Of a DNA stretch of 64,000 nucleotides, positions 13,969 to 24,216 are shown one piece after another. The DNA is from Tsuneonella litorea (GTDB lineage: Bacteria; Pseudomonadota; Alphaproteobacteria; Sphingomonadales; Sphingomonadaceae), in contig NZ_JAOAMV010000005.1 of NCBI RefSeq assembly GCF_025154015.1, positions 124,001 to 188,000 of the forward strand. The letters are read 5' to 3'. Below the pieces are notes generated by a model. It made no database searches, was not told the origin of the DNA, and saw nothing but the letters and a program-made list of their open reading frames with translations. The translations under genes and the position numbers were made by a program. Every line of letters starts with the position of its first letter. Within the stretch, counting starts at the first letter, position 1.

Positions 13969-14421
13969 ATGCCGGGCCTGTGGTTCGATGAATTATCCGT
14001 GGGGCAGACTTTCGATCACCCGATCCGCCGGACGGTGACCGAAACCGACAACCTGCTGTTCACGACGCTGAGCCACAACCCCGCCGCGCTGCACCTCGAT
14101 GCCGAGGCGATGAAGGACAGCGAATATGGCCGGATCCTCGTCAATTCGTGCTTCACGCTGTCGCTGATGGTCGGCGTATCGGTCGGCGACACGACGCTGG
14201 GCACCGCGATCGCCAACCTTGGCTGGGACGAGGTGCGTTTTCCGGCGCCCGTGTTCGTGGGCGACACGCTGCGGATCGAGACCGAGGTGATCGACCTGCG
14301 CGAGAGCAAGTCGCGACCCAATGCCGGGATCGTGACCTTCGCCCACCGCGCCTACAACCAGGACGGGAAACTCGTCGCCCAGTGCAAGCGCAGCGGGCTC
14401 CAGCGGAAGAAACCGGCATGA
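13969..14421 (+). CDS. MaoC-family acyl-CoA dehydratase
   Basis: This is a 150-residue hot-dog-fold protein of the MaoC dehydratase family, which hydrates or dehydrates enoyl-CoA-type thioesters. It has a central helix region (TTLSHNPAALHLDAEAMKD) containing the N-x5-H/D-type catalytic arrangement, and a C-terminal beta sheet. The start has a strong GAGGAGA element. Its stop overlaps the next gene (ATGA), a CoA-ester lyase of the malyl-CoA type. That pairing suggests a mesaconyl-CoA or methylmalyl-CoA type reaction sequence, which is inference from context. Confidence 0.87.
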   Translation: MPGLWFDELSVGQTFDHPIRRTVTETDNLLFTTLSHNPAALHLDAEAMKDSEYGRILVNSCFTLSLMVGVSVGDTTLGTAIANLGWDEVRFPAPVFVGDTLRIETEVIDLRESKSRPNAGIVTFAHRAYNQDGKLVAQCKRSGLQRKKPA

Positions 14422-15302
14422 CCCTGCGCAGCCTTCTCTTCATCCCCGGCGACAGCGACAAGAAGCTGGCAAAGGTGGCCGGATGCGGCGCCGACGCGGT
14501 GATCCTCGACCTCGAAGATTCGGTCGCGCCCGCGGCCAAGCCGGCGGCGCGCGACAAGGTCGCCGAGTTCCTCCACGGCTTCGACCGGGATGCGCAGGGC
14601 GCACCGGCGCTGTGGGTGCGGATCAACCCGCTGGACAGCGGGCTTGCGGAAACCGACCTCGCCGCCGTCGTCCCGGTGCGGCCGGACGGGATCATGCTGC
14701 CCAAGCCCGACGGGCCGGCCGACTGCGCGAAACTGTCGGACCTGCTCGATCACATGGAACTCGCCCACGGCGTCACGCCCGGATCGATTGGTGTGATCCC
14801 TGTAGCGAGCGAGACCGCGATCGCGCCGTTCCGGCTGGGCGAATACGCCACCGCCGACCTGCCGCGGCTGCGCGGGATCACCTGGGGGGCGGAGGATCTG
14901 GCCGCCGCGCTGGGGGCGACCGGAAATCGCGGGCCGGACGGTGAGTTCCTGTTCACATTCCGCTTGGTCCGCTCGCTCGCGCTGATGGCGGCGCACGCGG
15001 CGGGCGTCCCCGCGATCGAGACGCTCCACGCTGACTTCCGCGACGAAGCGGGACTCGCCGCGAGCAGCCGTCAGGCGTTTTCCGAGGGCTTTTCGGGCCG
15101 GCTCGCGATCCATCCCGCCCAGGTCGCACCGATCAACGCGGCGTTCACGCCAAGCGCCGAGGAAGTCGCCTTCGCCCGCCGCGTGGTCGCCGCCTTCGCG
15201 GCTGAGCCCGGTGCCGGGGTCGTCGGCCTCGACGGCAGGATGCTCGACATCCCGCATCTCAAGGCTGCCAAGCGGACGCTTTCGCTCGTCGGCGAAGAAT
15301 GA
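14418..15302 (+). CDS. HpcH/HpaI-family CoA-ester lyase (malyl/citramalyl-CoA type)
   Basis: This is a 294-residue TIM-barrel lyase related to citrate lyase beta subunit and malyl-CoA lyase. Family marks are RSLLFIPGDSDKKLAK at the N-terminus, ILDLEDSVAP with the acidic metal ligand, VRINPLDSG, MLPKPDGP, VASETAIAPF, and ITWGAEDLAAALGA. The C-terminal GRLAIHPAQVAPINAAF is typical. It probably cleaves or hydrolyses a beta-hydroxyacyl-CoA. The start overlaps the MaoC stop and its own stop overlaps the YjbQ start, so these three genes form a translationally coupled unit. Confidence 0.87.
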   Translation: MTLRSLLFIPGDSDKKLAKVAGCGADAVILDLEDSVAPAAKPAARDKVAEFLHGFDRDAQGAPALWVRINPLDSGLAETDLAAVVPVRPDGIMLPKPDGPADCAKLSDLLDHMELAHGVTPGSIGVIPVASETAIAPFRLGEYATADLPRLRGITWGAEDLAAALGATGNRGPDGEFLFTFRLVRSLALMAAHAAGVPAIETLHADFRDEAGLAASSRQAFSEGFSGRLAIHPAQVAPINAAFTPSAEEVAFARRVVAAFAAEPGAGVVGLDGRMLDIPHLKAAKRTLSLVGEE

Positions 15303-15797: not shown

Positions 15798-17258
15798 ATG
15801 ACCGAAGCCCGAACCAGCGCCGACTTTACCGCCGACAGGCTGCTCCTGTTCGGCGCGACCGGCGATCTTGCCCAGCGAATGCTGCTGCCGTCGCTGTGCG
15901 GGCTTGCGCACGACGGACTGCTGGCGCCCGACCTGCGGATCGTCGGGACCGCCCGCAGCGAGATGAGCGACGCCGAATTCCGCGATTTCGCGCGCAAGGC
16001 ACTCGAGACATACCTGCCCCCCAACCGCCGGGGCGGGATCGCGGAATTCCTCAACCGGCTGACATACCAGGCGCTCGACGCTTCGACTGTCGAGGGCTTC
16101 GATGCGCTGGCCGCGAAGGTCGGCAAGCCCGACAGGGGGCTGGCGATCTTCCTGTCGACCGCGCCGAGCCTGTTCGAGCCGACGATCGCCGGCCTCCAGG
16201 CGGCGGGACTGACCGGGCCCGAGGTGCGGATCGGCCTTGAGAAACCGCTCGGCACTGACCTCGAATCGAGCTGCGAGATCAACGACGCGGTCGCCGCCGC
16301 GTTCAGCGAGGACCGGATCTTCCGGATCGATCACTACCTCGGCAAGGAGACGGTGCAGAACCTCCTCGCGCTGCGTTTTGCCAACGTGATGTTCGAGCCG
16401 ATCTGGAACGCCAACTACATCGACCACGTCCAGATCACGGTGGCCGAGACGGTCGGCCTCGAAAGCCGGGTCGCCTACTACGACGACAGCGGCGCGCTGC
16501 GCGACATGGTGCAGAACCACATGCTCCAGCTGCTCGCGCTCACCTGCATGGAGCCGCCGACGAGCTTCGACGCCACCGCGGTGCGCGACGAGAAGGTCAA
16601 GGTGCTGCGCTCGCTGCGCCCGGTCGGTGACGGCGAGACGGTGACGGGCCAGTATCGCGCCGGCGCCGTCGACGGTAAGGCCGTGCCCGGTTACGACGAG
16701 GAACTGGGCAAGGATTCGGACACCGAAACCTTCGTCGCGATCAAGGCCCACGTCGACAACTGGCGCTGGAAGGGCGTGCCGTTCTACCTGAGGACGGGCA
16801 AGCGCCTGCCCGAACGGGTGACGGAGATCGTCGTCCAGTTTCGCTGCATTCCGTTCTCGATCTTCGAGGGGAGGGGCGCGAAGACCGTCCCCAATCGGCT
16901 CGTCATCGGCATCCAGCCCGAAGAGAACATCTCGCTTCGCCTGATGGCCAAGGTGCCCGGCCTCGACCGCGAGGGGCTGCGCCTGCGCCCGGTGCCGCTC
17001 GACATCTCGATGCCCGACGCCTTCGCCGGTGCGGTCAAGCGGATCGCCTACGAGCGGCTGCTGCTCGACCTCGTCGAAGGCGACCAGACGCTGTTCGTCC
17101 GCCGCGACGAGGTCGAGGCGCAGTGGGAATGGGTCGACGCGATCCGCGCCGGGTGGACCGAAGCCGGCGTGCAGCCGCGCACCTATACCGCCGGGTCGTG
17201 GGGGCCGAGCGCGGCGATCGCCCTCGCCGAACGCGATGGGGTAAGCTGGCATGAGTAA
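15798..17258 (+). CDS. zwf: Glucose-6-phosphate 1-dehydrogenase
   Basis: Zwf oxidises glucose-6-phosphate to 6-phosphogluconolactone and is the entry step of the Entner-Doudoroff route. The 486 residues show the nucleotide-binding GATGDLAQR near residue 18, GLEKPLG, and the substrate-binding/active-site segment [13 protein letters not shown] near residue 176. The length is normal. Its last eight bases overlap edd. Together with edd, glk and eda it makes a complete set for taking glucose to pyruvate and glyceraldehyde-3-phosphate, except that a 6-phosphogluconolactonase gene is absent from the operon. Confidence 0.97.
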
Positions 17259-19056
17259 CCTTCACGACACCATTCACCGCGTCACCCAGCGGATCGTCGC
17301 CAACAGCCGCGACAGCCGACGGCGCTATCTCGACCTGATGGACCGCGAGCGCGATCGCGCGCCCGACCGCAATTCGCTGGGCTGCTCGAATCTCGCGCAC
17401 GGATTCGCCGCCGCGCTCGAGGACCAGCCCGCGATCAAGAGCGGGCGCGGGCCGAACCTCGCGATCGTCACCGCCTACAACGACATGCTCTCGGCGCATC
17501 AGCCCTATGGCGCCTACCCGCCGCAGATGAAGGTCTGGGCGCGCGAGGTCGGGGCGACCTGCCAGGTCGCCGGCGGCACCCCGGCGATGTGCGACGGGGT
17601 GACGCAGGGGCAGGACGGCATGGAGCTGTCGCTGTTCAGCCGCGACGCGATCGCGCTCGCGACGGCGATCGCGATGAGCCACGCGATGTACGACGGCATG
17701 GCGCTGCTCGGCATCTGCGACAAGATCGTGCCCGGCCTCGTCATGGGGGCCTTGCGCTTCGGCCACCTGCCGGGCGTGTTCGTCCCCAGCGGCCCGATGC
17801 CGACCGGGATCGCCAACAAGCAGAAGCAGAAGGTCCGCCAGCTATATGCCGAGGGCAAGGCGACCCGCGCCGAGTTGCTCGAAAGCGAGAGCGCGAGCTA
17901 TCATTCGCCGGGCACCTGCACCTTCTACGGCACCGCAAACTCCAACCAGATGATGATGGAGATGATGGGGCTCCACGTCCCCGGCGCCGCCTTCGTGCCG
18001 CCCGGCACGCCGCTGCGGCAGGCACTGACTCGCGCGGCGGTGCACCGGCTGGCCGAGGTCGCCGACGATCCCGCATTCGCGATGGCGAAGACCTGCGACG
18101 AGAAGGCCTTCGTCAACGCCGTCGTCGGCCTGCTCGCGACGGGCGGCTCGACCAACCACGCGATTCACCTGCCGGCGATGGCCCGGGCGGCGGGAATCGC
18201 GATCGACTGGAACGACATGTCGGAGTTGAGCGGCGCGGTCCCGCTGATCGCGCGGGTCTATCCCAACGGGTCGGGCGACGTGAACCACTTCCAGGCCGCC
18301 GGCGGCATGGGGTACGTCATCGGCGAACTGCTCGAGGCGGGCCTCGGCCACCGCGACATCCGCACGATCTGGGGCGGCGACCTTTCCGACTACGCGAAGG
18401 AGCCCTGGCTCGACGGCGAGACGCTCGCCTGGCGCGAGGTCGGGGCGAGCGGAGACGACACGATGCTGCGCCCGGCCAGCGCGCCCTTTCAGCCCGACGG
18501 CGGGATGCGGCTGGTGGAGGGCAACCTGGGCCGCGCCTGCTTCAAGACGAGCGCGGTCGAGGAGGAGCGCTGGACGATCGAGGCCCCGTGCCGCGTGTTC
18601 GACAGCCAGCGCGCCGTCGCCGAGGCCTTTGCCCAGGGCGAGCTCGACCGCGACGTGGTGGTCGTGGTGCGGTTCCAGGGGCCGCGCGCGAACGGGATGC
18701 CCGAACTCCACAAGCTGACCCCGCCGCTGGGCGTGCTGCAGGACCGCGGGTACAAGGTCGCACTGGTGACCGACGGGCGGATGAGCGGCGCGAGCGGCAA
18801 GGTGCCCGCGGCGATCCACTGCACCCCCGAGGCGCTCGGCGGAGGCCCGCTCGCCCGCCTGCGCGACGGCGACGTGGTAAAGCTCTGCGCGAACACCGGC
18901 GCGCTCTCGACAGATGCCGACCTGTCGGCCCGCGCGCCGGCAGCGATGGGCGAGGACGAGCACGGCATGGGCCGCGAACTCTACGCCATGTTCCGCTTGG
19001 GCGCCGACAGCGCCGAGCGCGGCGCGAGCGCGATGCTGGCAGCGGGAGGACTCTGA
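17251..19056 (+). CDS. edd: Phosphogluconate dehydratase
   Basis: Edd dehydrates 6-phosphogluconate to 2-keto-3-deoxy-6-phosphogluconate. The 601 residues are full length for the IlvD/Edd family. Visible marks include [40 protein letters not shown] and GICDKIVPG with candidate iron-sulfur cysteines, [19 protein letters not shown], and the C-terminal [18 protein letters not shown]. It overlaps zwf by eight bases and its TGA overlaps the glk ATG (TGATG). Confidence 0.97.
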
Positions 19057-20051
19057 TGGCGAAGAAGGCGAGCGAACTCGTCGCGGTCGACATCGGCGGC
19101 ACCCACGCCCGGTTCGCGATCGCCACGATGGCGAAGGACGGTTCGATCACGCTCGGCGAACCCGAGACACTCCACACCGAGGACCACGCGAGCTTCCAGA
19201 CCGCATGGGAGGATTTCCGCGAGCGGCAGGGCGGCACCTTGCCCGGTGCCGTCAGCATGGCGATCGCGGGTCCGGTGGGGGGCGAGGTGATCCGCTTCAC
19301 CAACAACCCGTGGATCATCCGCCCCGCGCTCGTGCGCGAAAAGCTCGGCGTCGAACGCTATACCATCGTCAACGACTTCGAGGCGGTGGCGCACGCCGTC
19401 GCCCGCGCGCCGGACGAGCAGTTCGTGCATCTGACCGGGCCCGAGGGTCCGCTGCCCGCGACCGGCCGGCTGACGGTGCTGGGACCCGGTACGGGGCTTG
19501 GCGTCGCGCACCTCTACCGCGAGCCCGACGGCACCTACCGCGTCTCCGCGACCGAGGGCGGGCACGTCGACTTCGCCCCGCTCGACCAGATCGAGGACGC
19601 GATCCTCGCCCGGCTGCGCAAGCGCCACACCCGCGTGTCGGCCGAGCGCGTGGTCTCGGGTCCGGCAATCTCGGACATCTACCAGACGCTCGCCGCGCTC
19701 GAGGGGCGGGCGGTCCACGAGGAGGACGACATCGCGATCTGGACCCGGGGAATGGACGGGTCCGACAGCCTGGCGGCCGCAGCGGTTGACCGGTTCTGCA
19801 TGTCGCTCGGCTCGGTGGCGGGCGACATGGCGCTCGCCCACGGGGCCAAGGGCGTCGTCATCGCCGGGGGATTGGGATACCGCATCCGCGACACGCTGCT
19901 GAAGTCCGCCTTTGCCGAGCGGTTCCGCGCCAAGGGCCGCTTTGCCGAGATGATGGCGGGCATTCCCGTCAAGCTGATCGTTCACCCCCAGCCCGGCCTG
20001 TTCGGGGCCGCAGCCGCATTCACCTCAGAGTATCCGGGGAAGCGCAAGTGA
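19056..20051 (+). CDS. glk: Glucokinase
   Basis: Glk phosphorylates cytoplasmic glucose to glucose-6-phosphate using ATP. The 331-residue protein has the N-terminal phosphate loop VDIGGTHARFAIA, the NDFEAVAHAVA segment with the catalytic aspartate, LGPGTGLGVAHL, and EGGHVDFAP with a sugar-contacting glutamate. It starts with the ATG inside TGATG, preceded by GGGAGGA. Its presence implies that free glucose is the substrate of this route and that uptake is not through a sugar PTS. It overlaps eda by four bases. Confidence 0.96.
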   Translation: MAKKASELVAVDIGGTHARFAIATMAKDGSITLGEPETLHTEDHASFQTAWEDFRERQGGTLPGAVSMAIAGPVGGEVIRFTNNPWIIRPALVREKLGVERYTIVNDFEAVAHAVARAPDEQFVHLTGPEGPLPATGRLTVLGPGTGLGVAHLYREPDGTYRVSATEGGHVDFAPLDQIEDAILARLRKRHTRVSAERVVSGPAISDIYQTLAALEGRAVHEEDDIAIWTRGMDGSDSLAAAAVDRFCMSLGSVAGDMALAHGAKGVVIAGGLGYRIRDTLLKSAFAERFRAKGRFAEMMAGIPVKLIVHPQPGLFGAAAAFTSEYPGKRK

Positions 20052-20662
20052 GAGACATTGCAGCCATCATGCGCGCCGCGCCGGTGATCCCGGTGATCGT
20101 GATCGACGACCTCGCGCACGCCGTCCCGCTGGCCGAGTCGCTCGTCGCCGGCGGCCTGCCGGTCCTCGAAGTGACGATGCGCACCCCCGCCGCGCTCGAC
20201 GCGATCCGGGCGATGAAGGCGGTCGAAGGCGCGATCGTCGGCGCGGGAACGGTGACCAATCCCGACCAGCTTGCGCAGGCGCTCGACGCGGGCAGCGAGT
20301 TCGTCGTCTCCCCGGGACTGACCGAGCGGCTCGGCCGCGCCGCGATCGACAGCGGCGTCCCTTTCCTGCCCGGAATCGCCAACGCGGGCGACATCATGCG
20401 CGGGCTCGATCTCGGGCTCACGCACTTCAAGTTCTTCCCGGCGATGGCGGCCGGCGGGTTGCCCGCGCTGAAGGCGCTCGCCGCGCCGTTCGGCCAGTGC
20501 CGCTTCTGCCCCACCGGGGGCATCGGGCTCGACACCGCGCCCGCGTGGCTGGCGTTCGATCCCGTCCTCTGCGTCGGCGGAAGCTGGGTGTCGCCAAAGG
20601 GAGCGCCCGATCGCGCACAGGTGGAGGCGCTGGCGCGCGAAGCCGCGGCGCTCAGGTCGTGA
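20048..20662 (+). CDS. eda: KDPG aldolase
   Basis: Eda cleaves 2-keto-3-deoxy-6-phosphogluconate to pyruvate and glyceraldehyde-3-phosphate by a class I (Schiff-base) mechanism. The 204-residue TIM barrel shows VLEVTMRTPAALDAI, GAGTVTNPDQ, FLPGIANAGDIM, the Schiff-base lysine in THFKFFPAMAAGG, and CPTGGIG. It starts with GTG overlapping the glk stop (GTGA), and its own TGA overlaps the GTG of the following PEPC homologue. It lies in the middle of a fully overlapping gene chain. Confidence 0.97.
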   Translation: MRDIAAIMRAAPVIPVIVIDDLAHAVPLAESLVAGGLPVLEVTMRTPAALDAIRAMKAVEGAIVGAGTVTNPDQLAQALDAGSEFVVSPGLTERLGRAAIDSGVPFLPGIANAGDIMRGLDLGLTHFKFFPAMAAGGLPALKALAAPFGQCRFCPTGGIGLDTAPAWLAFDPVLCVGGSWVSPKGAPDRAQVEALAREAAALRS

Positions 20663-23421
20663 GGACCGTCGCCGACCTCGTCGAGCGACTGCGCGTCCAC
20701 CATCGGCAGACCGCCAACACCCCGCTGTTCAATCCGGTGTTCCAGCTCTCGCTCGACCTCTCGCGCGAGCTCGAGTCGGGCGATCTCGACCTGGCTGGCC
20801 TCGGCGCGATGATCGCCGAACTCGAATGCTCGGGCCTCAAGAGCCGCGCGGAGCGGCTGCGCCGGCTGGTCGATCCGGCAAGCGCGGCTGCCCGGCTCGC
20901 CAGGATCGTCGACGAGGAGGACGATTTCGACGCGTTCGCGGCGCGCTGGTCGCATCCGCAGCTCCACGCGGTGTTCACCGCGCATCCCACCTTCCTGCTG
21001 CCGCCCGCGCAGTCGGACGCGGTGGCCGCGGCTGCCAGCGGACCCGACGGCATCGACGAAGGCGTCTGCGTCGTCGCAGGCGAACGCCCGGCGATCACGC
21101 TCGACTACGAACATGGCCGGGCGATGCGGGCCATCGGCCACGCCCAGGACGCGCGCGACCGCATCGTTCACGACCTTCTCGCCGCGGCGAGGGACCGCTG
21201 GCCCGACCGCTGGACCGAGGTCGATCCGCTGCCCTTCCGCTTCGCCACCTGGGTCGGCTACGACATGGATGGCCGCACCGACATCAAGTGGCACACCTCG
21301 ATCGCCTATCGCCTCGCCGAAAAGGCGATGCGGCTCGCGCGATATGCGGGCACGCTCGAGGAAATCGCGCCGGACCACGAGCTTGTCGGCGTCCTGCGCC
21401 GCGCGGGCGATCATGCAGCCCGGCACGCCGAGGCGTTCTCGCATGACCTGGCGGACCCCGCCGCGCTGTCCGCAGCCGCCAACCACCTGACGGCCGACGA
21501 TCCCGACAAGCTGCTTTCGCTCGCCCCCGTGATCGAGCGGCTCGAACGCGAAGCGACCGGCAGTGACGCGGTTGCGCTGCGCACGCTCGCCGCCGCGATG
21601 CGGGCAGACGGGCTGGGCATGGGCTGGATTCATTTCCGGGTGAATGCCAGCCAGCTCCACAACGCGATCCGCCGCCGGCTGCCCGAGGGGCAGGAGATCG
21701 ACATCGGAAGCCGCGGCGCGCTCGCGACGCTGCGCGCGATGCTTGCCGAGACCGAGCCGCTCAAGGCGAACTTCGCCGCGCTCGCGGTCGAGAGCTCGAC
21801 CGCGATCCGGCAGTTCCTGGCGATGGCGCAGATCATCCACCACGTCGACGCCGACGCGCCGATCCGGATGCTCATCGCCGAGTGCGAGCAGCCCGCGACG
21901 GTGCTGGCAGCGCTCTACTTCGCCCAGCTGTTCGGGATCGCCGACAAGGTCGACGTATCGCCGCTGTTCGAGACCGAGAGCGCGCTGGAACACGGCGGGC
22001 GCCTGCTCGATGCGCTGCTCGCCGAGCCGGCGTACCAGGACTATGCCCGCAACCGCGGGCGGGTCGCGGTCCAGACCGGTTTTTCCGACGCGGGTCGGTT
22101 CGTCGGGCAGATCCCCGCGAGCCTTGCCATCGAGCGCCTTCAGGGCCGCCTTGCCGCCGCGATGGAGGCGAATGGCCTGACCGACGTGGCCGCGCTGATC
22201 TTCGACACCCACGGCGAGAGCATGGGCCGCGGGGCGCACCCCTCGGGCTTCGCCGACCGGCTCGAATGGCCGCTTTCGCCGTGGGCGCGGCGGCGGTTCG
22301 TCCGGGCCGGGATCACGCTCGAACCCGAAGTCAGCTTCCAGGGCGGCGACGGCTACCTGTTCTTCTTCACGCCCGAACTGGCGCTCGCCACGCTCACCGA
22401 GATCGCCTCGTTGCGCCCGGCCGACGCCGATCCGGATGCGCCGACCGATCCCTTCTACCGACGCACCGACCTCAGCCTCGACTTCTACCGCGCGGTCAAG
22501 GAGCACCAGCGCGATCATCTCGAGAGCCGGACCTACAGCCGCGCGATCACCGCGTTCGGGCTCGGGATGCTGGTGTCGACCGGCAGCCGCGTGTCGCGCC
22601 GCCAGTCGGACCTGTCGGCGGACCGGGAGATGAGCCTGCGGCAGATCCGCGCGATCCCGCACAACGCGATCCTGCAGCAACTCGGCTACCCGGTGAACGT
22701 GATCGCCGGGGTCGGCAGCGCGGCCGACGGCAACCTCGACGACATGGCCGCGCTCTTGCGCGAAAGCCCGCGCGGGCGCCAGATCGTGCGCCTCGTGCGC
22801 GCGGCGAACGCGCTCGCCAGCATCAAGACGGTCGCCGCCTATGGCGAGCTGTTCAACTCGGCCTACTGGGCAAGCCGGACCTATCGCGGCACCGAGGAGC
22901 ATCTTGCGCCCGCCTGCGCGGCGCTCGCCGAATACCTCACCAAGGACGATCGCAACGGCGTGTTCCGCCGCCTCGCCTCGCGCCTGCGGGTCGATGCGCT
23001 AAAACTGCACCGGCTGCTCGACCTGGTCCCCGACGACAGCCCGCTCGCCACGCGCGAGCAGGTCCGCCGCGAGATCGGGGTGCTGCAGGCGCTACGCCTC
23101 GCGCTGCTGCAGCACATGTTCCTGAAGGCGGTGAGCATTCCCGCATTCGCCCGCGCCAACGACATCAGCCGCGACGACGTGCTCGAAATGGTCTTCACGC
23201 TGCGGATCGACGATGCGCTGGCGCAGCTGCGGCGCGCCTATCCGGCGCAGGTCAGCCGGGCGAGCGACTACGCGGTCGACGAACCCGGCTCCTATCCCGA
23301 TGGCGAGGGCGAGGGCTACGCGGCGATCCACCGCGACTACATCGAACCGATCGAGGACGCCTACGATCTCTCGCTGCGGGTGTCGGTTGCGATCGCCAAC
23401 CTGTTCGGCGCGCACGGCTGA
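20659..23421 (+). CDS. Divergent phosphoenolpyruvate carboxylase homologue
   Basis: This is a 920-residue protein with the overall layout of phosphoenolpyruvate carboxylase, which carboxylates PEP to oxaloacetate. The block corresponding to TAHPTE reads FTAHPTFLL (His109). The GDRDGNP-like block reads GYDMDGRTD. The GYSDSxKDAG block reads GFSDAGRF (474-481) with the lysine missing. The FHGRGGxxGRGG block reads THGESMGRGAHP (His518 kept, the following Arg changed to Glu520). The C-terminus keeps a terminal glycine. It starts with GTG overlapping the eda stop. Either it is a PEPC with an altered site or it has a different activity. I compared motifs from memory, not by alignment. Confidence 0.8.
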   Translation: MRTVADLVERLRVHHRQTANTPLFNPVFQLSLDLSRELESGDLDLAGLGAMIAELECSGLKSRAERLRRLVDPASAAARLARIVDEEDDFDAFAARWSHPQLHAVFTAHPTFLLPPAQSDAVAAAASGPDGIDEGVCVVAGERPAITLDYEHGRAMRAIGHAQDARDRIVHDLLAAARDRWPDRWTEVDPLPFRFATWVGYDMDGRTDIKWHTSIAYRLAEKAMRLARYAGTLEEIAPDHELVGVLRRAGDHAARHAEAFSHDLADPAALSAAANHLTADDPDKLLSLAPVIERLEREATGSDAVALRTLAAAMRADGLGMGWIHFRVNASQLHNAIRRRLPEGQEIDIGSRGALATLRAMLAETEPLKANFAALAVESSTAIRQFLAMAQIIHHVDADAPIRMLIAECEQPATVLAALYFAQLFGIADKVDVSPLFETESALEHGGRLLDALLAEPAYQDYARNRGRVAVQTGFSDAGRFVGQIPASLAIERLQGRLAAAMEANGLTDVAALIFDTHGESMGRGAHPSGFADRLEWPLSPWARRRFVRAGITLEPEVSFQGGDGYLFFFTPELALATLTEIASLRPADADPDAPTDPFYRRTDLSLDFYRAVKEHQRDHLESRTYSRAITAFGLGMLVSTGSRVSRRQSDLSADREMSLRQIRAIPHNAILQQLGYPVNVIAGVGSAADGNLDDMAALLRESPRGRQIVRLVRAANALASIKTVAAYGELFNSAYWASRTYRGTEEHLAPACAALAEYLTKDDRNGVFRRLASRLRVDALKLHRLLDLVPDDSPLATREQVRREIGVLQALRLALLQHMFLKAVSIPAFARANDISRDDVLEMVFTLRIDDALAQLRRAYPAQVSRASDYAVDEPGSYPDGEGEGYAAIHRDYIEPIEDAYDLSLRVSVAIANLFGAHG

Positions 23422-23439: not shown

Positions 23440-24216
23440 TCAATCCATGTCGTCGAGTTCGTCCGCGACGTAGAGCGGTCCGTGGCCGTAGAGATAGCTG
23501 GGGTCGAAGTCGCCGTGGCGCTCGAGCTTGGCCCGGTCACGCACGATCACGAGCCCGCGGCGAAACTCGGCGATGTCCTCGCGCCTCAGCTCGGACAGCG
23601 CGCGGTTCATGTGGATCGCGGTCGTCCCGCACATGTCGGCAAGGTCCGACTGGGTGAGCGGGGAGCGAAACCCGTTGCTCCGCCCCAGGCCCACCATCTC
23701 GAGCCGGCGCCAGATCTCAGAAAGCCTGTGCGAGACGCGGCGGCTGGCCTTGAGCTGCTCGAGCTTGAGCGTCCATTGCCGGTGGATCGCCGCGTCGAGC
23801 AGGGTGGAAAACCAGAACAGCCGCGACAGGTGCGGTTCGTGCGCATGGATGTGGCCGATCCGGTCGTGCGAAATCTGGCCGACCCGCGTCGGCCCCAGCG
23901 TGACGACGTCGTGATCGAGGCGCTTGAGCGCATAGGCGTGCAGGTCCACGAAATCGCCCGGCACCTGGATGCCGACGATATAGCGGCGCTCATGCTCGGT
24001 GATCGTGCGCAGGATGAACCCGTCGATCAGCATGGTCGAACGATCGGTCGGCTGGCCGCGGGCCAAAATGCAGGTCTGGGTGTCGTAACGGATCACCTGC
24101 TCGATCGACTGCTCGAGCAGATCCTTTTCCCGCTCTTCCATCGCGTGGCGCGACCGTCCCATGAGGAAGCGGCCCGTCAGCGGGTATCGTTCGGCATCGT
24201 CCACCACGTCGATCAC
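23440..24216 (-). CDS. Crp/Fnr-family transcriptional regulator
   Basis: This is a 258-residue regulator with an N-terminal cyclic-nucleotide-type beta barrel (about 20-140, including IQVPGDFVDLHAYAL) and a C-terminal winged helix. Its recognition region is SPLTQSDLADMCGTTAIHMNRALSELRR. The Fnr-type N-terminal cysteine cluster is absent, so a direct iron-sulfur oxygen sensor is unlikely; the ligand is unknown. It starts at GTG 24216; an internal ATG is possible. It converges with the PEPC homologue with 18 bases between, so it is not in that operon. Whether it controls the sugar operon is not shown. Confidence 0.88.
   Translation of the reverse strand: MIDVVDDAERYPLTGRFLMGRSRHAMEEREKDLLEQSIEQVIRYDTQTCILARGQPTDRSTMLIDGFILRTITEHERRYIVGIQVPGDFVDLHAYALKRLDHDVVTLGPTRVGQISHDRIGHIHAHEPHLSRLFWFSTLLDAAIHRQWTLKLEQLKASRRVSHRLSEIWRRLEMVGLGRSNGFRSPLTQSDLADMCGTTAIHMNRALSELRREDIAEFRRGLVIVRDRAKLERHGDFDPSYLYGHGPLYVADELDDMD

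Follow-up and report, generated by a model that had tools for sequence, protein, structure and literature searches.

A divergent, probable phosphoenolpyruvate carboxylase encoded at the end of the Entner-Doudoroff operon of Tsuneonella litorea

The locus

The window considered here, the whole stretch of 64,000 nucleotides that was analysed, comes from the alphaproteobacterium Tsuneonella litorea (order Sphingomonadales; assembly GCF_025154015.1, contig NZ_JAOAMV010000005.1, positions 124,001 to 188,000). Positions 20659 to 23421 of its forward strand hold a real open reading frame that starts with GTG and encodes a protein of 920 residues resembling phosphoenolpyruvate carboxylase (PEPC), as a first-pass annotation of the sequence had read it. 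Pfam, profile alignment and predicted fold identify a divergent PEPC gene, the last of an Entner-Doudoroff (ED) operon with the order zwf-edd-glk-eda-PEPC gene. Its product is very probably a working, lineage-specific PEPC of a divergent and mainly alphaproteobacterial class; the closest named relative found, from Tsuneonella troitsensis, is 85% identical.

All junctions of the operon overlap, by eight nucleotides between zwf and edd and by four at the other three. The last of these is the GTGA at 20659 to 20662 (+), which joins the eda stop to the start of the PEPC gene and is conserved in relatives. When any of the three candidate starts nearest the aligned start is accepted, an overlap of 1, 4 or 8 nucleotides with the stop of the preceding gene is present at 49 of 55 loci with eda upstream and at 23 of 24 with glk upstream, counts that include the window and some genomes twice. 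The first-pass annotation had called the gene fused by overlap to the ED operon and translationally coupled to eda. The overlap holds and is kept in relatives, but it is no protein fusion, and since the upstream neighbour is glk at 24 loci, the coupling is better assigned to glk or the ED operon than to eda itself.

The four upstream genes, all on the forward strand, each exceed the threshold of one or more NCBIfam models so named: zwf (glucose-6-phosphate dehydrogenase, 15798 to 17258; TIGR00871, 554.3 bits), edd (phosphogluconate dehydratase, 17251 to 19056; TIGR01196, 890 bits), glk (glucokinase, 19053 to 20051; TIGR00749, 232.2 bits), whose ATG was picked within a longer mechanical open reading frame, and eda (2-keto-3-deoxy-6-phosphogluconate aldolase, 20048 to 20662; TIGR01182, 228 bits). 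The operon seems to end at the PEPC gene because a Crp-type regulator gene (HTH_Crp_2; 23440 to 24216, reverse strand) lies convergently downstream. Upstream of zwf, a gene for a CitE-like/HpcH-HpaI lyase (14421 to 15302, +) passes its Pfam cut-off and falls below the NCBIfam RipC and CitE cut-offs. The overlap of zwf and edd leaves no room for a gene between them in the ED operon of the window (15798 to 20662); two relatives (loci L040 and L193) have one there, matched by no search and likely pgl. A candidate shared flanking gene beside zwf was rejected, being an open frame read antisense to the ED genes, which are rich in GC.

Relation to known carboxylases

Membership of the PEPC superfamily is seen in a Pfam match to PF00311 (62.8 bits, cut-off 22.4, residues 307 to 690), in a full-length fold and in the presence of the catalytic histidine and the glutamate and aspartate metal ligands. 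The AlphaFold model of the window protein, built with 71 sequences, has a mean predicted local distance difference test score (pLDDT) of 85.3 and a predicted template modelling score of 0.89. Searched with Foldseek, all 50 of the PDB matches listed are PEPCs (best E 2.9e-16, query-normalised template modelling scores of 0.52 to 0.64 over 960 to 1066 columns), and 61 PDB matches have an E value up to 0.001. A global profile-profile alignment by hhalign of 45 divergent sequences with 25 canonical ones, Escherichia coli Ppc included, joins residues 1 to 816 to E. coli residues 1 to 883 with an E value of 2e-26, and is to be trusted in the core around the motifs. The PEPC-like nature of the protein is thereby borne out, the predicted fold being that of E. 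coli Ppc (PDB 1jqn/1fiy).

The protein stands apart from the canonical enzymes, both by its score on the strict NCBI equivalog model and by the replacement of Lys546, Arg581, His579 and Arg253 of E. coli. A tree of 73 divergent and 32 canonical sequences separates the two sets cleanly, with a support of 1.0, and the median identity over trimmed columns is 35% within the divergent set, 63% within the canonical set and 17% between them. Most divergent proteins end in GAxG, while 28 of the 32 canonical ones end in RNSG or RNTG. Neither does the protein belong to the archaeal-type PEPCs, which would catalyse the same reaction if our reading is right: its sole Pfam match with an E value up to 1 is PF00311, and it has 920 residues, against 55-60 kDa for the archaeal type and 90-110 kDa for bacterial and plant enzymes in section 9 of a 2020 review (PMC8100219). 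That section distinguishes four PEPC types and does not set the divergent class apart.

Plasmid proteins of Phyllobacterium zundukense and of the betaproteobacterium Burkholderia pyrrocinia, the latter present as one copy, belong to the same family (43.5% and 34.6% identity over 99% of the query) and share its signature residues in different operons. Among four plasmid relatives, two are named phosphoenolpyruvate carboxylase in RefSeq, one is a hypothetical protein in GenBank and one lies without a feature. The domain assignment is therefore not new, RefSeq having named two of them already; searches of openly licensed PubMed Central papers brought up no description of the divergent family as a class.

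Active site

The residues of the motifs were mapped to E. coli numbering with hhalign and MAFFT, which agree, and counted in 97 members of the family, some of them near-identical. Eight residues are kept in 97/97: His109 (His138 in E. coli) in TAHPTF (residues 107-112; 20977 to 20994), Arg327 (Arg396) in HFRVN (21631 to 21645), the magnesium ligands Glu438 (Glu506) in PLFET (21961 to 21975) and Asp477 (Asp543) in GFSDAGRF (residues 474-481; 22078 to 22101), Arg524 (Arg587) in FDTHGESMGRGAHP (22201 to 22242), Arg644 and Arg648 (Arg699 and Arg703) in GSRVSRR (22582 to 22602), and Arg664 (Arg713) in RAIPHN (22648 to 22665), all motifs being on the forward strand.

Around this core the divergent family has its own residues. 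Lys546 is replaced by Arg480 and Glu141 by Phe112 in every member. The position of Arg581, His518 in the window protein, is His in 89 members and Gly in 8; that of His579, here Asp516, is Asp in 53, Asn in 42 and Ser in 2; that of Trp717, here His668, is His in 65, Asn in 29 and Gln in 3. Arg253 aligns with Met203 in GYDMDGRTD (21256 to 21282, +), a position held mostly by Leu (41), Met (27) and Thr (15), also by Val. The same motif carries Arg206 (Asn256 in E. coli), which is invariant in the family, as is Thr517, and Glu520 is found in 96/97. The first-pass annotation had quoted the letters of TAHPTF, GFSDAGRF and THGESMGRGAHP (residues 517-528) correctly. Its remark that the lysine is lost holds insofar as Lys546 is absent, but the change is a swap to an invariant arginine. 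Its proposal that the first arginine of the last motif becomes Glu520 fails: both methods align Arg581 with His518 and Gly583 with Glu520, which rules out Glu520 as the successor of Arg581.

Lys600 of the Flaveria enzyme, a bicarbonate-site residue, is taken here as Lys606 of maize, assuming an offset of six residues between the two plants. In the Flaveria PEPC, changing Lys600 to Arg or Thr raises the Michaelis constant for both phosphoenolpyruvate (PEP) and bicarbonate (PMC6363079). Since these changes raise the Michaelis constants, a natural arginine at the bicarbonate-site lysine is compatible with activity, and kinetics unlike those of canonical PEPC are plausible for the divergent form.

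The regulation site may differ as well. Lys773 and Asn881, which we take to be the residues binding the inhibitors aspartate and malate, are each present in 29 of 32 canonical PEPCs. They align with Leu719 and Ala918 of the window protein, and the position of Asn881 is Ala in 83/97 members and Asn in 0/97, in a C-terminal region where the alignment is weak. Because Asn is missing there throughout, weak feedback inhibition by aspartate and malate is predicted. Other residues are likewise found at the two positions in two PEPCs of serine-cycle operons, Met and Ala in one (L235), Leu and Trp in the other (L248). According to the report on Methylosinus trichosporium Ppc1, this enzyme of the 'non-regulated' group has Leu805 and Ala912, two of its four inhibitor positions being altered (PMC3615186). 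A PEPC free of control by fructose bisphosphate would suit ED metabolism, which bypasses that compound.

Distribution among genomes

With the family profile, 398 genomes of the window's own phylum were sampled. Strong matches occur in 29 of them (best scores of 613-1387 bits), every one a member of the class to which the window belongs; a further 46 genomes match with no more than 59.2 bits. The order sample (147 genomes) holds 75 genomes with the divergent form, 24 with canonical PEPC and none with both. The scores of these 99 genomes form two bands: the 24 canonical genomes lie at 898-955 bits, the other 75 at 35-70 bits; 45 of the 75 were sequence-checked as divergent and 30 assigned by score. 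Full-length pyruvate carboxylase (PYC; TIGR01235 over its cut-off) is present in 15 of the 147, namely in 0/75 with the divergent form, 1/24 with canonical PEPC and 14/48 with neither. The divergent form and canonical PEPC or PYC thus avoid each other in the order (Fisher p about 2e-15); this and the following p-values treat genomes as independent, with no correction for kinship, and some genomes are incomplete.

Mutual exclusion, sharp in the order, is weaker across the class. Among 289 class genomes, 45 have the divergent form, 31 canonical PEPC (at least 500 bits) and 43 PYC; both PEPC kinds occur in G173, the divergent form with PYC in G751, and canonical PEPC with PYC in two genomes. Divergent form and PYC coincide once where 6.7 cases are expected (p 0.006), and the divergent form coincides with canonical PEPC or PYC twice where 11.2 are expected (p 0.00025). 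No canonical PEPC accompanies the divergent form in 75/75 genomes of the order, 44/45 of the class and 8/12 further genomes, the other four belonging to genus g63. The Tsuneonella litorea genome itself lacks canonical PEPC and full-length PYC by PF00311 and TIGR01235 profile searches; the look for a canonical ppc elsewhere, which the first-pass annotation had advised, yielded no second PF00311 protein.

Several side observations concern the same genomes. Methylobacterium-like genomes (loci L234, L235 and L263-L265 of genus g63; L251) carry both PEPC kinds, and the divergent copy of g63 clusters with the one from Methylobacterium bullatum (L251). In G173 a cluster of serine-cycle type (L235) includes the canonical PEPC, and the divergent gene is found at another place (L234). 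For M. aquaticum, one study reports that ppc2 is not upregulated on methanol (PMC5784242). Six further class genomes with PF00311 match neither PEPC kind. G208 carries a further PEPC-like variant that fits neither kind (L247, 3523-6711, reverse strand; 1062-residue frame, 1.9-Mb genome), in which TAHPT is present and a simple text search found none of the later canonical motifs. The edd gene is present in 64/75 order genomes with the divergent form, 23/24 with the canonical form and 13/48 of the rest. ATP-dependent phosphoenolpyruvate carboxykinase (ATP-PEPCK) occurs in 127/147 order genomes and is absent from 11 of the 75. Near-complete genomes with edd and without either PEPC or full-length PYC include G094, G103 and G112, all of genus g13, besides several more from the order.

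Two operon positions shared with canonical PEPC

The divergent gene has one or more ED genes within 7 kb at 23/45 order loci, at 63/80 named loci, a set biased by being nearest to the window, and at 0/28 class loci outside the order. A further 20 class loci contain one (L256) where a glk-like gene lies on the opposite strand at a distance of about 2 kb. For canonical ppc, the same linkage is found at 2/24 order loci and 0/7 class loci. ED linkage with another gene order extends to proteins of 32-34% identity (L040, L042, L045, L046, L059, L062). In L193 and L200, canonical ppc directly follows glk of zwf-edd-glk, the place that the divergent gene occupies in relatives with zwf-edd-glk-(eda)-divergent gene. 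In a phylogeny built on zwf, edd and glk these two loci come out together as sister to 66 operons with divergent PEPC, and the swap is counted as one replacement event because they form a single sister group.

A second position, belonging to the serine cycle, lies behind a SucCD/MtkAB-like pair, found directly upstream at 5 of 52 divergent loci: L218, L253 and L254, all of one genus, L250 and L269. The 52 comprise the 28 and 20 class loci outside the order and four plasmid records, one from Sphingobium. Such a pair precedes the gene at 2/7 class canonical loci (L235, L248), and at none of the 45 order or 80 named divergent loci and none of the 24 order canonical loci. L269 (genome G497) has the order CitE-like lyase, mtkA, mtkB, divergent PEPC, its mtkA product reaching 716 bits as malate-CoA ligase beta subunit (cut-off 604). 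L248 shows CitE-like-mtkA-mtkB-canonical ppc (mtkA 724 bits) and L235 mtkA-mtkB-canonical ppc-CitE-like (mtkA 760.5 bits). The PEPCs of these two loci keep Lys546, Arg581, His579, Arg253 and Trp717 and branch with the canonical set in the tree. In G497 the divergent PEPC is the only PF00311 protein, and in G154, G667 and G757 (L218, L253, L254) the divergent kind is the only PEPC kind shown. On plasmids the neighbours differ again: in Sphingobium (L252) an enolase and an FAA-hydrolase protein lie upstream, and in Burkholderia pyrrocinia (L249) the gene sits between an RraA-like protein and D-glycerate dehydrogenase. As L249 lies outside the Alphaproteobacteria, transfer and another pathway are possible there.

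Proposed function and alternatives

Residue conservation, the mutual avoidance of the divergent form and canonical PEPC or PYC within the order, and slots in two operons shared with canonical PEPC give good support to a lineage-specific PEPC, one of the two options that the first-pass annotation had left standing. We infer activity, and with it kinetics and regulation, on the ground of the fold family, conservation, operon, exclusion in the order and slots observed. As described in PMC10176493, the PEPC cycle needs magnesium on a glutamate and an aspartate, and a loop histidine. The residues aligned with these are all kept. Magnesium would be bound by Glu438 and Asp477, and PEP by the kept Arg327, Arg524, Arg644/648 and Arg664, the individual roles of these arginines in holding PEP being our assumption. 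Attack of bicarbonate on PEP would give the enolate and carboxyphosphate, from which His109 would free CO2 for addition to the enolate, so that oxaloacetate would be made from PEP and bicarbonate and the tricarboxylic acid cycle refilled while glucose is burned to pyruvate by the ED route. The chemistry would be the same with a rewired bicarbonate/phosphate subsite, its class-specific elements being Arg480 for the bicarbonate-site Lys546, His518 for Arg581 and the invariant Arg206.

A number of points weigh against this reading. The window protein scores 68 bits on the strict NCBI PEPC equivalog (PRK00009), whose cut-off is 815, and Arg253, Lys546, His579, Arg581, Trp717 and Glu141, replaced in the divergent family, are invariant in 32/32 canonical enzymes. 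In the model, pLDDT drops below 50 in the active-site loops 202-207, 478-480 and 641-654. Across the class, the avoidance of canonical PEPC taken by itself does not reach significance (one shared genome where 4.8 are expected, p 0.06), and genus g63 has both kinds in 5/5 genomes examined. In the order, ten genomes carry edd but lack both kinds of PEPC as well as full-length PYC, for which reason a strict rule that relatives with ED genes need one of these carboxylases was rejected. Other routes to C4 acids exist in the window genome, given its ATP-PEPCK and its isocitrate lyase and malic enzyme matches. The ligase beta subunits of L250, L218 and L254 reach 501.9, 555.4 and 554.7 bits on the malate-CoA ligase model, below its cut-off of 604, and these enzymes may be succinate-CoA ligases. 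The CitE-like proteins of the second slot score below the cut-offs of all models matched, and would be malyl-CoA lyases by their position.

The replaced residues, together with the family's own Arg206, Thr517 and Glu520, could also belong to a PEPC fold repurposed for another C3 acid or enol phosphate, the altered Arg581 and Lys546 positions reading another group, and the neighbours on the B. pyrrocinia and Sphingobium plasmids lend this some colour. It is nonetheless unlikely: canonical PEPC and PYC are excluded in the order, the divergent form occupies the PEPC slots of ED and serine-cycle operons, and the enolase near L252 would itself supply PEP. The second option of the first-pass annotation, a repurposed enzyme with a C3 acid as substrate, is therefore left unsupported, since the mcl-like-mtkA-mtkB-PEPC slot needs conversion of PEP to oxaloacetate and G497 has no other PF00311 protein. 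The same need in G497 bears on the idea that the enzyme mainly hydrolyses PEP to pyruvate and phosphate, as a bypass of pyruvate kinase beside eda. Some PEPC active-site mutants do shift to bicarbonate-dependent PEP hydrolysis, but His109, which serves the second step, is kept in 97/97, and we regard this outcome as very improbable. Hardly credible at all is a paralogue that has lost activity and serves the operon in regulation or structure; the departure of its motifs from the textbook ones would invite this view, yet the catalytic and metal residues are invariant, and a canonical PEPC that could do the work is missing beside the divergent form in nearly every genome counted above.

Beyond a working divergent PEPC, we advance tentatively, and with more doubt than confidence, a mechanistically distinct further PEPC type. 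In it Arg480 would stand in for Lys546, and His518, Arg206 and Glu520 would replace Arg581 and Arg253; it would lack aspartate/malate feedback, suit ED and C1 metabolism, and have changed places with the textbook enzyme on more than one occasion among the alphaproteobacteria.

Concluding remarks

Among CO2-fixing enzymes PEPC holds a central place, and the evidence gathered here suggests that many alphaproteobacteria use the divergent form in place of the textbook one. The annotation of the PEP-pyruvate-oxaloacetate node would change in many of them: the window protein reaches 68 bits on the strict NCBI model, where 815 are required, so that metabolic models relying on it would report no PEPC. 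The predicted lack of feedback by aspartate and malate could interest metabolic engineers. A natural class that seems to work without Lys546, Arg581 and His579 would also make the roles of those residues directly testable.

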